A DNA stretch of 5,507 nt. Origin: Candidatus Sediminicultor secundus. GTDB taxonomy: Bacteria; Atribacterota; JS1; SB-45; 34-128. The DNA is taken from the NCBI GenBank assembly GCA_002849045.2, contig NCRO01000024.1:352-5858 (forward strand), written 5' to 3'. Of this stretch, positions 1,427-5,507 are shown piece by piece. Position numbers and translations under genes: made by a program. The number at the start of each line of letters is the position of its first letter. Within the stretch, counting starts at the first letter, position 1. The notes beneath the pieces are model-generated. The model had not been told where the DNA came from. It made no database searches and worked only from the letters and a program-made list of their open reading frames with translations.

Positions 1427-1551
1427 CTTTGTCATTCCGCACTTGATGCAGAATCCATAAGCAAGGGGCGTATGCAATACACCCCTACAACAACATATCA
1501 TCTCTGCAGTTTACACTCACGAAAGTGGTAGAGAGAATGACATTGACAAAG
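1427..1551. repeat. Composite inverted-repeat element in a convergent spacer
   Basis: The ends are inverted repeats. CTTTGTC (1427-1433) matches GACAAAG (1545-1551), and GTCATTC (1431-1437) matches GAATGAC (1535-1541). Just inside the left end, ATTCCGCA (1434-1441) and TGCAGAAT (1447-1454) form an 8-bp hairpin with one mismatch. The centre carries the separate hairpin at 1465-1488. There is no ORF, so any mobility would be non-autonomous. It may be a MITE-like or REP-like repeat, and copies elsewhere in the genome would decide this. Confidence 0.5.
1465..1488 (-). repeat. GTAG-footed hairpin, REP-like, single copy
   Basis: Read on the minus strand, this 24-mer begins GTAGGGG and folds as GGGGTGTAT, loop TGC, ATACGCCCC. 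On that strand the only non-Watson-Crick pair is a T:G wobble. Length, GTAG foot and CCC end match the hairpins at 3831-3854, 3884-3907, 3916-3939, 5394-5417 and 5447-5470. It sits inside the 1427-1551 element, which looks like a nested insertion. Confidence 0.6.
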
Positions 1552-3594: not shown

Positions 3595-3691
3595 TTTTAA
3601 AAAGCAAGTTATTTTACAAAATTTAACTTTCATAAGTTTGAATAGTTCTATGGTTATTATATCTTAATTAACCTAAATAGCAAAATAGAGT

Positions 3692-3771
3692 AATTGACCA
3701 ATTCTCCAATTTACCGATTAGCCAATTTACCAATTAGTCAATTTACCGATTCCCCGATTAGCCAATTTACC
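3692..3771 (+). repeat. Ten-unit 8-bp tandem array (RATTNNCC)
   Basis: Ten octamers run without a break in register: AATTGACC, AATTCTCC, AATTTACC, GATTAGCC, AATTTACC, AATTAGTC, AATTTACC, GATTCCCC, GATTAGCC, AATTTACC. Variation is concentrated at positions 5-6. Units alternate partly as 16-bp dimers: the exact 16-mer of 3716-3731 recurs at 3756-3771. The reverse complement of this unit forms the array at 13-44. It lies about 100 bp upstream of the operon promoter candidate. No coding or known regulatory role is visible. Confidence 0.9.
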
Positions 3772-3776
3772 AGTTA

Positions 3777-3797
3777 ATTAGTAGTTAGTGAATAATA
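3777..3797 (-). repeat. Short 7-bp array abutting the 8-bp array
   Basis: On the minus strand the units read TATTATT, CACTAAC, TACTAAT, followed by TAACTGG (3770-3776), which leads straight into the octamer array. The stretch 3770-3792 matches the reverse complement of 110-132 with two differences, tying this junction to the leader of gene 1. Confidence 0.65.
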
Positions 3798-3830
3798 ATC
3801 CGTATCGCGCTAAAGAAATAAGATTCAGGC

Positions 3831-3907
3831 GTAGGGGCACAATGAATTGTGCCCTTCCTGTTTTATTGTTTTTTGATTACCCTGGGCACGATGCATCGTG
3901 CCCCTAC
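3831..3907. repeat. 77-bp paired-hairpin element, copy 1 (BIME-like)
   Basis: The terminal inverted repeats are perfect: GTAGGGGCAC (3831-3840) and GTGCCCCTAC (3898-3907). Each end forms its own hairpin. On the left, GGGCACAAT/ATTGTGCCC (3835-3854) is a 9-bp stem. On the right, 3884-3903 is a perfect 20-bp palindrome, GGGCACGATG/CATCGTGCCC. A T-rich spacer separates them. GTAG at the 5' foot of each hairpin, with two hairpins facing each other, is the known layout of REP/BIME elements. A second 77-bp copy in the same orientation lies at 5394-5470. There is no transposase ORF and no clear target duplication. Confidence 0.75.
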
Positions 3908-3915
3908 ATTATTGC

Positions 3916-3939
3916 GGGTTCGATTCATCGAACCCCTAC
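3916..3939 (-). repeat. Single GTAG-footed hairpin with a different stem
   Basis: GGGTTCGAT (3916-3924) and ATCGAACCC (3927-3935) pair over 9 bp around TC, followed by CTAC. On the minus strand it starts GTAGGGG like its neighbours. Compared with the hairpin at 3884-3907, the stem triplet CAC/GTG is replaced by TTC/GAA on both arms, so pairing is kept while sequence changes. It points the same way as the right arm of the 77-bp element, only 8 bp away. Confidence 0.65.
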
Positions 3940-4005
3940 CTCCTAAGCACCCTCCGCAAATAATCTTCTGGCTCCTGAATTCTGAATTTTATCTCTTCTT
4001 TTCTT

Positions 4006-4040
4006 CACTATATACTATATACTCGATACTTGATACTATC
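4006..4040 (+). repeat. 7-bp tandem array, TACTNNN units
   Basis: Five heptamers occur in register: CACTATA, TACTATA, TACTCGA, TACTTGA, TACTATC. A shorter heptamer dimer, CTGAATT twice, precedes it at 3975-3988. The inverted counterpart lies at 5142-5176 on the other side of the TPR gene and shares a 14-bp exact match (4026-4039 with 5142-5155 reversed). The array lies beyond the 3' end of the TPR gene. Confidence 0.8.
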
Positions 4041-4101
4041 TTATCTTCTGTCTTCTTTATTTTATTTTCTTAACCAACTAACTATCTAACTCTTTTCTTG
4101 T

Positions 4102-4150
4102 TACTCATTACACATTACTCATCACTATATTTCTAAACGCTATCCGCTAT
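4102..4150 (+). repeat. 7-bp array running into the TPR gene stop codon
   Basis: Heptamers in one register are TACTCAT, TACACAT, TACTCAT and CACTATA, then a degenerate TTTCTAA, then ACGCTAT and CCGCTAT. The last unit covers the stop codon of the TPR gene (TAG, 4147-4149). Weak units in the same register can be traced back to 4074. The TPR gene therefore ends directly in repeat DNA, and no stem-loop terminator is visible just beyond its stop. Confidence 0.7.
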
Positions 4151-5061
4151 TCTCCCTGTTTTTCTGCTTGCCTTAGCCAGTACTCTGCCTTTTTATTTTC
4201 CGGTTCTAAACGCAAGACTTCTTTCCAATTACTCGCGGCTTCCCGATAATTACCCCGTTCATAATAAATTCTACCCAGCCAATAATAAGCTGAAGAAAAA
4301 TCGGAATTGTATCTAACTGCTTGACGGTATTCGTATATTGCTTCTTCAAATAACCTTTGTTCATAAAGATTATACCCTGCTTCATAATTAGAATATGCTT
4401 CTTTCCCGTATTTTATAGAATTTTCTACTTTAGTATAAAAATATTGAGCCCGAGGATAATAAGGGTCAATCTCTAACACTTTTTGCCAGGAAGAAAGAGA
4501 ATCATTCAATCTACCTTCTTCGTAAAATACTCTCGCTAACCAATAGTGAGCTTCGGTCATTTCTGAGCTAACCTCAACCGCTTTTTGTAAATACAGGGTA
4601 CAGCCATCATAATCTTCCCTTTGATAGGCCGCATATCCCAACCGATAATAGGCGAAAGATAATTTTTGTTCAGCTTCCGGAGAAATTACTTCCTTTTTTT
4701 GAATAAGTTCAATATATCTCCCCCACTCTCTTGCTTCTCGATAATACCAATTAGTATATTGGTAAATCTGGGCAAGATGATAATGAGCTTCTATAAAATC
4801 AGGTTCTGCCTCAATAGCTTTTTCACCATAATCGATAGCTTCAACCCACAGTTTTTTATTGGGATAATTAACTCCCTGGTAAGTTTTAATCGCCTCATCC
4901 ATCTTGTTTACAGCCATCTTTAGGTAATCAGATGCTTCTTGAGAAAGAGTTTCCCAGGTAGTTTCCCCCTGACCAGCTGCAAAATTAAAGCTAAATACTG
5001 ACAATAATCCACAAATAATTAAACTTAATATCAAAAACATTTTTAAATATCTCTTTTTCAT
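4147..5061 (-). CDS. Exported tetratricopeptide-repeat (TPR) protein
   Basis: The protein has 304 residues. A signal peptide is clear: KKRYLK, a hydrophobic stretch (about 8-28), then AAGQ, with cleavage near residue 29-30. Cys17 lies mid-hydrophobic and has no lipobox. The mature part is largely TPR helices. Repeats are seen at about 73-104 (EAIDYGEKAIEAEPDFIEAH), 134-167, 168-201, 224-253 and 254-288, with a gap at 105-133 that may be a divergent repeat. Repeats at 168-201 and 254-288 are close to each other (A-H/Y-YWL-R--YEEG, then SW/NW-KVL--P), suggesting recent internal duplication. TPR proteins act as protein-protein scaffolds. Exported ones often serve envelope assembly, but no partner can be named from this sequence. 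It is transcribed alone: the next gene in the same direction lies over 600 bp downstream. The start is supported by GGAGGGG upstream. Confidence 0.9.
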   Translation of the reverse strand: MKKRYLKMFLILSLIICGLLSVFSFNFAAGQGETTWETLSQEASDYLKMAVNKMDEAIKTYQGVNYPNKKLWVEAIDYGEKAIEAEPDFIEAHYHLAQIYQYTNWYYREAREWGRYIELIQKKEVISPEAEQKLSFAYYRLGYAAYQREDYDGCTLYLQKAVEVSSEMTEAHYWLARVFYEEGRLNDSLSSWQKVLEIDPYYPRAQYFYTKVENSIKYGKEAYSNYEAGYNLYEQRLFEEAIYEYRQAVRYNSDFSSAYYWLGRIYYERGNYREAASNWKEVLRLEPENKKAEYWLRQAEKQGE

Positions 5062-5067
5062 CTTCAG

Positions 5068-5074
5068 CCCCTCC
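5068..5074 (-). promoter_or_regulatory. Shine-Dalgarno of the TPR gene
   Basis: On the minus strand GGAGGGG precedes the ATG at 5061, with the GGAGG core 8 nt away. This is a strong site that fixes the start. Confidence 0.85.
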
Positions 5075-5090
5075 TTTTAATCTTTATTTT

Positions 5091-5129
5091 ATTATACATC
5101 ATTATATCTTAATTCTACATTTTTTATAA
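5091..5129 (-). promoter_or_regulatory. Candidate promoter of the TPR gene with two TATAAT boxes
   Basis: On the minus strand there are two perfect TATAAT hexamers, at 5101-5106 and 5091-5096. The upstream one has TTATAA (5124-5129) 17 nt before it, matching four of six -35 bases. The downstream one has no comparable -35. Either would give a leader of a few tens of nucleotides before the ATG. AT-richness limits confidence. Confidence 0.5.
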
Positions 5130-5141
5130 ATACCCTTAAAT

Positions 5142-5176
5142 ATAGTATCAAGTATATAGTATCGAGTATCGAGTTA
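5142..5176 (-). repeat. 7-bp tandem array, inverted relative to 4006-4040
   Basis: Five heptamers on the plus strand read ATAGTAT, CAAGTAT, ATAGTAT, CGAGTAT, CGAGTTA. The first four form two 14-bp dimers differing by one base. Reverse-complemented they are ATACTAT, ATACTTG, ATACTCG and similar, the family seen at 4006-4040. The array lies just upstream of the TPR promoter candidate. Confidence 0.8.
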
Positions 5177-5238
5177 GGGAGGCGAAAGAAAAGATAAAAA
5201 AACAAGAGCAATAACTATTCTTTTCTTTCTTCTAACTC
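5171..5238. repeat. Imperfect inverted repeat, purine-rich and pyrimidine-rich arms
   Basis: GAGTTA (5171-5176) pairs with TAACTC (5233-5238), and GAAAGAAAAG (5184-5193) pairs with CTTTTCTTTC (5220-5229). Unequal internal loops of 7 and 3 nt separate the two stems, and the end loop is 26 nt. The outer arm overlaps the last unit of the heptamer array. It is low in GC apart from GGGAGGC in the internal loop. It could be a transcript 3' end from a gene beyond the window or a chance low-complexity pairing. Confidence 0.3.
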
Positions 5239-5393
5239 TCTCACAAAAGCAAAGATTAATATTTATTTGCATCGAGCATATTATATTATAGTTATTCCCC
5301 AAAAAGCCAAAAGATATTTAAAATCAGATTATGTATATGGTATGTTACAGATAATTTTATAGCAAATTATGATTTTTTGGTTATAATTATGTT
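5239..5393. other. AT-rich spacer without a recognisable gene
   Basis: I see no ORF with a ribosome site, no RNA gene and no strong motif here. A weak GCAAA/TTTGC pairing (5249-5270) and a TATAAT on the plus strand (5382-5387) without a good -35 are the only signals. The whole gene-free tail of the window, 5077-5507, otherwise holds the TPR promoter region, the heptamer array and the second 77-bp element. Confidence 0.5.
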
Positions 5394-5470
5394 GTAGTGC
5401 CACAATGAATTGTACCCTTGCCCTATTGTTACCTAAGTTCTACTATGGGCACGATGCATCGTGCCCCTAC
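5394..5470. repeat. 77-bp paired-hairpin element, copy 2 (BIME-like)
   Basis: It has the same length and orientation as 3831-3907. The right hairpin (5447-5466) is identical to 3884-3903, and identity extends over 29 bp (5446-5474 with 3883-3911). The left hairpin has decayed: GTAG is kept, but the foot reads GTAGTGCCAC and the far arm ends TGTACCC, breaking three pairs. The spacer between hairpins is largely unrelated between copies although its length is unchanged. Confidence 0.75.
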
Positions 5471-5507
5471 ATTACTATTTTGTGTACTTTTTGGGTTATA
5501 ATCATAT

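Follow-up and report, generated by a model that had tools for sequence, protein, structure and literature searches.

Paired GTAG hairpins of an Atribacterota-clade REPIN family, their likely RAYT and the MITE around one of them

Do the two hairpin elements in a 5,507-nucleotide stretch of Candidatus Sediminicultor secundus (contig NCRO01000024.1, positions 352 to 5,858; hereafter the window) belong to a mobile family, and what would have spread them? An earlier note on this DNA had reported two equal-length 77-bp elements (3831-3907 and 5394-5470, here elements 1 and 2) as a candidate family of repetitive extragenic palindromic (REP) sequences paired as bacterial interspersed mosaic elements (BIMEs). 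We hold, with a probability of about 0.9, that both are REP doublets forming hairpins (REPINs, or BIMEs) of a family found across one Atribacterota clade, that the likely mobiliser is a REP-associated tyrosine transposase (RAYT, or TnpA_REP) with subclass 2.4 features, and that element 2 was spread mostly by a miniature inverted-repeat transposable element (MITE). Every genome-wide statement below on hairpins, RAYT and MITE comes from relatives of the window's bacterium.

The paired hairpins and their family

Coordinates and length of the two elements were confirmed. Both are built of 24 + 29 + 24 bp, with inward-facing hairpins and GTAG/CTAC feet, as the earlier note had it; a degenerate hairpin pattern (up to three mismatches) yielded six matches in the window, including offset other-strand matches to the same hairpins, versus none in 200 dinucleotide-preserving shuffles. 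The right hairpins (3884-3907 and 5447-5470), said to be identical, indeed agree at 24/24 bases, while the left ones differ at 3/24 positions and the spacers, likewise as described, diverge (13/29 positions agree) at a constant 29 bases. When folded as single-stranded DNA, element 1 forms two hairpins of 8 bp, each with a 4-nt loop (z −6.19, 0/200 shuffles as good). Element 2 folds more weakly (z −3.27, 1/200 shuffles as good) because its left hairpin, the letters of which read GTAGTGCC...TACCC, has decayed.

This hairpin type is abundant in related genomes. We refer to the genomes containing loci L001-L008 as G001-G008; L001, L002, L004 and L005 are Candidatus Atribacteria or Atribacterota records, L003 is labelled 'bacterium' and L008 Chloroflexota, and the first window protein shares 89-91% identity with proteins encoded at L001-L005. 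The pattern GTAGGGG-N14-CCC matched 136, 34, 178, 135, 26, 8, 5, and 27 times in G001 to G008, respectively, versus 0 to 5 times for the reversed-pattern control (3, 1, and 1 in G001, G003, and G004), G006 and G007 being the poorest. It was present in 52 of 61 genomes around G001, many of them at or below control level, and G010 (173 matches), G012 (155), G015 (130), and G013 (95) were also rich. A 366,673-base sample of G001, with contigs picked mostly for holding matches, contained 71 matches (double-foot palindromes counted on both strands), in which the five stem pairs left free by the pattern were all formed in 60 cases, four of them in 8, and two or fewer in 3. When perfect GGGN5-N4-N5CCC hairpins were collected blind to the foot, GTAG preceded 55 of 118 and the next tetranucleotide only 7. 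Hairpin centres fell inside open reading frames (ORFs) of at least 100 codons in 6/71 cases, though such ORFs cover 79.9% of the sequence. Collectively, these G001 counts evidence a constant foot, a covarying stem and mostly intergenic sites.

Pairing was scored over 398,277 bases (window, G001 pieces, L001, and L004) holding 83 hairpins. Neighbours at most 200 bp apart were foot-outward in 25 of 31 pairs, foot-inward in none and on the same strand in six. The start-to-start distance was 52-53 bp, that is, a pair of 76-77 bp, in 13 of the 25 foot-outward pairs, which also include two double-foot palindromes and two pairs spaced 158-160 bp. Three subtypes recur, CACAATGAATTGTG with CACGATGCATCGTG (that of the window's elements), TTCGA with TCGGA, and the double-foot CGTATTGCAATACG, and all are represented in the window. 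Further genome-wide copies (few in G006 and G007), a preference for the GTAG foot and inverted pairing, all anticipated in the earlier note, are borne out by these numbers. In three other genomes (G033, G044, and G048), many listed pairs are foot-inward (minus then plus, ~38-41 bp apart), opposite to the window's clade.

Presence of the pairs varies between species. We set one G001 locus, with regions A and B, against the corresponding loci of 11 relatives (from a search of 12 genomes, G005 yielding no locus that was used), scoring 24-mer GTAG hairpins with at least 7/8 stem pairs. The pair of region A occurs in G001 only, such a hairpin being present in 0/11 relatives. Region B contains a window-type pair in G001, G003, and G014, a TCGGA/TTCGA pair in G011, a GCGGA/TTCGA pair in G012 and one hairpin each in G004 and G015; the same scan found none in G002, G006, G009, G010, and G013, with hairpins of other kinds in G010 and G013. 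As for element 1, the syntenic, shorter interval of L001 has no GTAG hairpin.

A candidate RAYT and its in-frame REPs

The earlier note had expected a matching RAYT, and one is found in a related genome. The gene in G004 (contig C105, locus L201) encodes a 218-aa protein with the motifs NHFH, WQRN, and YIQNNP, and is both flanked by and contains the window hairpin type. On each side lies one window-type 77-bp pair (CACCATGAATGGTG with CACGATGCATCGTG), both copies identical, together with a CGTATTGCAATACG hairpin; the 130-bp flank modules are 95% alike and in direct orientation, and a double-foot palindrome lies downstream. Within the ORF, CACAATGAATTGTG and CACGATGCATCGTG hairpins sit in frame in the stretch from HUH (last residue 91) to WQ (first residue 166), near residues 100 and 116 as counted from the match start. 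Added to copy number, foot and pairing, this linkage supports the proposed REP/BIME family in the relatives. By motifs and REP features, L201-type genes fit TnpA_REP subclass 2.4 (group 4), and the best solved structure for the RAYT profile is the TnpA_REP 4er8 (E 4.8e-6, 40 profile positions).

A profile (A1) built from seven REP-linked RAYT proteins matched 8 of the 14 clade genomes in which it was searched. As read from the matches, A1-type ORFs occur in G003, G004, G010, G013, and G014, and damaged or residual copies in G012, G014, and G015; the G011 match is another RAYT type, and the search found no A1-type RAYT in G001, G002, G005, G006, G007, and G009. Close relatives of the G004 gene in G010 (L200, contig C152) and G013 (L198, contig C8) have CGTATTGCAATACG hairpins both within the gene and on its flanks, and L200 also has one CACGATGAATCGTG hairpin upstream. 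The G004 and G010 genes, ~82% alike in DNA, differ in their in-frame REPs and partly in their flanking REPs. In G010 and G014, RAYT genes bear TTCGA and TCGGA at opposite ends, and the TTCGA partner belongs to the subtype seen at 3916-3939 of the window. The ORF of a separate RAYT, in G052, includes an exact copy of the window hairpin GTAGGGGCACGATGCATCGTGCCC.

In-frame hairpins were surveyed in 38 loci (the 30 best-scoring and 8 clade loci) and then in 40 lower-scoring ones. The first survey revealed a GTAG hairpin inside 34/38 RAYT genes, in 32 of these 34 between HUH and W and in two near the N-terminus; these positions were read by eye, and automatic recognition missed HUH or W in L203, L237, L239, and L242. 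GTAG hairpins lay within 250 bp on both flanks in 9/38 loci and on at least one flank in 24/38, with one locus of the 38 having none anywhere. In the second survey, 23/40 genes had an internal hairpin, 21 of them between HUH and W, and 3/40 had none in gene or flanks. Hairpin density per kb was 4.55 in the HUH-W stretch versus 0 in the rest of the ORF (12,282 nt), the ORF values omitting four loci where HUH and W (three) or W alone (one) went unrecognised, and 2.93 in the 250-bp flanks versus 0.08 further out. In-frame and flanking REPs match in L242, L229, L248, and L203. In-frame REPs, generally between HUH and Tyr, are a feature of tnpA_REP subclass 2.4 according to the available part of PMC6006769; because of that report we do not claim as new what we had first taken to be so. 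In the G004/G010/G013 clade, however, the RAYT has apparently changed its cognate REP, to judge from its REPs, the in-frame site and most flanking sites in G004 being of the window type. L201, L200, and L198 would then be a possible natural switch of specificity, which the in-frame REP would record or take part in.

The strongest PF01797 genes were considered as the cognate RAYT and rejected, other inverted repeats standing at the ends of 14/21 loci; these genes look like the transposases flanked by terminal inverted repeats (TIRs) described in PMC3733652 (TIRYT, TIRtrons). A window-family hairpin lay near only 1/20 PF01797 loci (L089), in a MITE-like repeat outside the gene's own repeats, and a second set (36 matches, 30 with loci) showed a 24-mer GTAG hairpin in 1/30, since most cognate RAYTs match the Pfam model weakly (20-27 bits). 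Indeed, the REP-linked type, with open frames of 166-285 aa, gives weak PF01797 matches, and L201 is absent from the matches of that search. Among 13 further regions, GTAG hairpins lay by or in the gene in nine and were lacking in four; two of the nine (L187 and L195) combine another GTAG family with another RAYT type.

Two side observations concern these genes. Loci L088-L104 (G001-G007) contain many Y1 transposase genes of 243-327 aa with flanking inverted repeats such as GGGGACGGTTCT, GGGGTCAGGTCTT, and GGTGCCAGGCACC. A further GTAG REP family (GTAGGACAGGCGTCTCGCCTGTC, GTAGGACGGGCATCTTGCCCGTC) occurs in L002, L187, and L195, and in the latter two its REPs adjoin RAYTs that pass the NCBIfam cut-off.

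The MITE around element 2 and two spacer classes

Element 2 lies inside a longer repeat (Table 1), which we take for a MITE carrying a REPIN because its ends recur and its flanks are duplicated. The strict end pattern GRTTRNWWCCCAAAAAG was found 30 times in G001, 24 in G010, and 16 in G012 (controls 0-1), and in none of G002, G007, G009, and G013; the right end of the window copy fits it and the left end is one base off. Two-ended copies scanned in G001 have identical 6-7 bp flanking duplications in 4/6 cases versus 2/30 mismatched pairings. In the window, the seven bases before the MITE (ATATTAT) begin like the four after it (ATAT), where the window ends. Judged from TIRs and duplications, it was probably moved by a DDE-type transposase. 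Inspection of one inward TIR pair 1.7 kb apart on contig C3 of G012, partly masked and with its ORFs taken as listed, identified no such transposase. Three pairless MITE copies were considered as empty sites and rejected, since hairpin traces remain by eye (in L148, only the CTAC foot); we read them as deletions, and the pair therefore seems old in the MITE. In both the window and L001 (6774-6984), a MITE plus REPIN unit stands upstream of the TPR gene, in opposite orientations.

Labelled from their flanks, solo (n = 7) and MITE-borne (n = 9) copies, with three mixed-flank copies omitted, form two spacer classes: mean identity is 0.68 within the former and 0.71 within the latter versus 0.56 between them, a difference as large in 2 of 10,000 label permutations. 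The spacer of element 1 belongs with the solo class (0.68 vs 0.54 to the MITE class) and that of element 2 with the MITE class (0.67 vs 0.53 to the solo class), so the two spacers differ at constant length because they represent two sub-populations of one REPIN family. The spacer of the pairs flanking the G004 RAYT is also closer to the solo class (0.66 on average, element 1 being closest at 0.76) than to the MITE class (0.52). Since element 2 sits in a MITE and element 1 stands alone with a RAYT-like spacer, the two probably spread by different routes, and the spread of element 2, the core of a TIR-bearing unit, would be mostly the MITE's. The earlier proposal that the pairs move as a unit thus applies in different ways to the two copies, element 1 most likely as a stand-alone REPIN and element 2 as a passenger of the MITE.

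Table 1. Features of the window related to the hairpin family
Feature	Position	Strand	Basis
Element 1, stand-alone REPIN (head-to-head REP pair), 77 bp	3831..3907	+	sequence; spacer class 'solo'
Left REP of element 1, GTAG foot, stem GGGCACAA, loop TGAA	3831..3854	+	fold
Spacer of element 1, 29 bp	3855..3883	+	0.76 identity to the spacer of the G004 RAYT-flanking REPIN
Right REP of element 1, GTAG foot, stem GGGCACGA, loop TGCA	3884..3907	-	fold
Element 2, MITE-borne REPIN, 77 bp	5394..5470	+	sequence, MITE copies, spacer class
Left REP of element 2, with 3 changes and a decayed stem (GTAGTGCC...TACCC)	5394..5417	+	
Spacer of element 2, 29 bp, MITE spacer class	5418..5446	+	
Right REP of element 2, identical to 3884-3907	5447..5470	-	
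MITE with element 2, ~214 bp, ends by eye GTTATTCCCCAAAAAG / CTTTTTGGGTTATAATC	5290..5503	+	sequence, G001 copies
Single REP, second subtype (GTAGGGGTTCGATGAATCGAACCC)	3916..3939	-	close variants border RAYT genes of G010 and G014 on one side
Decayed double-foot REP palindrome, CGTATTGCAATACG subtype	about 1462..1488	.	fold of 1463-1487, 7/200 shuffles as good

The MITE, the hairpin at 3916-3939 and the palindrome near 1462-1488 are absent from the earlier note; the palindrome has an intact syntenic counterpart in L004 (11275-11302). The window genes encode an aminotransferase-family protein (PF00155), a Ysc84-domain protein, a glycosyltransferase (families 4 and 1 domains) and a TPR protein, and no Rfam model matched at its gathering score. 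Degenerate 8-bp tandem arrays (AATT plus 4) at 9-132 and 3676-3805, each adjoining a TTAGTGAATA-like stretch, are inverted copies bracketing the coding block. An inverted repeat CACCTGGCACTTAA / TTAAGTGCCAGGTG at 1554-1608 resembles the GGTGCCAGGCACC repeats that adjoin Y1 genes at L097 and L101.

Mechanism, rival explanations and known systems

In the mechanism that we propose, the RAYT would bind the hairpin in single-stranded form at the GTAG foot, cut beside it with the HUH/Tyr site and help to copy the hairpin pair into new intergenic places. Element 1 would most likely have arrived in this way as a stand-alone REPIN, whereas element 2 would travel as the core of the TIR-bearing MITE. Cleavage, transposition and action of the G004 RAYT on window-type hairpins are what we infer from studied relatives of the enzyme: TnpA_REP proteins of E. 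coli, S. maltophilia and Marinomonas bind and cleave single-stranded REPs, with a variable dependence on GTAG and cleavage at CT (CT or CA in one case), as the available part of PMC8266576 reports, and PMC3116915, in the part available, argues that the doublet is the replicating unit. By analogy, both single-stranded action and replication as a doublet would extend to the Atribacterota family.

Several observations weigh against this explanation. No A1-type RAYT was found in G001, G002, and G005 despite their 136, 34, and 26 pattern matches, and the G052 RAYT lacks a GTAG hairpin in its 250-bp flanks. The NCBIfam model REP_Tyr_transpos (NF047646) has a cut-off of 80 bits, above the 69.1 bits of L201 and the 61.7-68 bits of L185, L186, L188, L189, and L192 of the A1 set. 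Which REP the G004 RAYT prefers is uncertain, because CGTATTGCAATACG, carried by its G010 and G013 relatives, flanks it too. At the compared G001 locus, region A is not a clean solo insertion, since what lies to its right in G001 looks like the end of a MITE, and the pair of region B need not be a recent insertion, given that window-type pairs occur there in three species. Finally, L001, L002, and L005 are draft records of metagenome-assembled genomes.

The REPs of L201 and its relatives are also what would favour assigning the window-type hairpins to a RAYT lineage other than that of the G004 gene, adjacency in G004 then being mere REP clustering: CGTATTGCAATACG lies around and inside the gene in L198 and L200, and both subtypes lie in the flanks of L201. 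Nevertheless, the in-frame REPs of L201 are of the window type and elsewhere in-frame REPs match the flanking ones (L242, L229, L248, and L203), while the separate RAYT of G052 has the window hairpin inside, and we regard this assignment as rather unlikely. Tentative, and less likely than not, is a fuller scheme in which one REPIN family has two independent spreaders, namely a RAYT that works on hairpins in single-stranded DNA and a MITE that depends on its TIRs and has captured the REPIN as its core, with the RAYT having switched its cognate REP.

Could both elements instead be mere parts of a DDE-type MITE family, the hairpins being passengers or a structural core and no RAYT being involved? 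Element 2 does lie inside a MITE with TIRs, whose G001 copies have target duplications and whose ends are common in G001 (30), G010 (24), and G012 (16), and the three pairless copies, seemingly deletions, make the pair look old in the MITE. However, G002 and G013, with 34 and 95 hairpin matches, have no MITE ends by the strict pattern, and RAYTs are flanked by the hairpins and contain them. The flanks of element 1 and of several G001 copies are unrelated, and their spacers fall in another class; we therefore reject a DDE-only origin of both elements as highly improbable. We give hardly any more credit, and if anything slightly less, to the hairpins being retained because they serve the host (in transcription termination, mRNA stabilisation, or binding of gyrase or other proteins) and not through mobility. 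Such REP roles are proposed in PMC3733652, in the part available, and the intergenic bias (6/71 centres in ORFs) would suit them; but a terminator needs neither a paired 77-bp length nor a GTAG foot nor linkage to a RAYT, and between species the pair of region A is confined to G001 (0/11 relatives) and the subtypes of region B vary. A secondary host role may exist beside mobility.

REPIN-RAYT systems, as we read both elements here, thereby extend to Atribacterota, a poorly studied phylum. A literature search pairing Atribacter* with repetitive extragenic palindrom* returned no paper in one library and for those words only. REPINs and RAYTs are already in the literature, as are REPs in frame within RAYT genes, and the Atribacterota family is a new instance of these known kinds. 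REP choice by TnpA_REP has been studied for a few group 2 and group 3 enzymes, according to the part of PMC8266576 at hand, and the G004/G010 RAYT pair would offer a direct test case for it. Moreover, the copies borne by MITEs suggest another route by which REPINs can multiply, a point of importance where RAYT activity is inferred from REPIN numbers.

The following comparisons refer to the available parts of the cited papers. The family resembles the REPINs of Pseudomonas fluorescens SBW25 (PMC3116915) in having REP doublets inverted around a spacer, favoured distances, an extragenic location, high copy number and RAYT genes with their own REPIN clusters; it differs in sequence, in its 77-bp heterodimer of two unlike hairpins, in its occurrence in Atribacterota and in having part of its copies inside a MITE. 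With the GTAG-tagged REP dimers of Di Nocera et al. 2013 (PMC3733652), which fall into 24 consensus families, it shares, at the level of text description, the GTAG foot, a short stem/loop, head-to-head dimers including heterodimers, and conserved spacers; the phyla listed for GTAG repeats in the part available omit Atribacterota. The RAYT resembles TnpA_REP subclass 2.4 (RAYT group 4; Quentin et al. 2018, PMC6006769) in its NH[IFV]H, WQ, and YIxNNP motifs, its long and double-foot REPs, and its in-frame REPs generally between HUH and Tyr; here, in addition, close relatives do not share the same in-frame REP (G010 and G013 vs G004). What appears unusual is thus the capture of a REPIN by a MITE together with the apparent exchange of cognate REPs between close RAYT relatives. 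PMC3733652 also describes RAYT-like genes flanked by unrelated TIRs (TIRtrons), and for the MITE-captured REPIN it offers a partial analogue in the GTAG-15 dimers of A. variabilis, which lie within longer palindromes.

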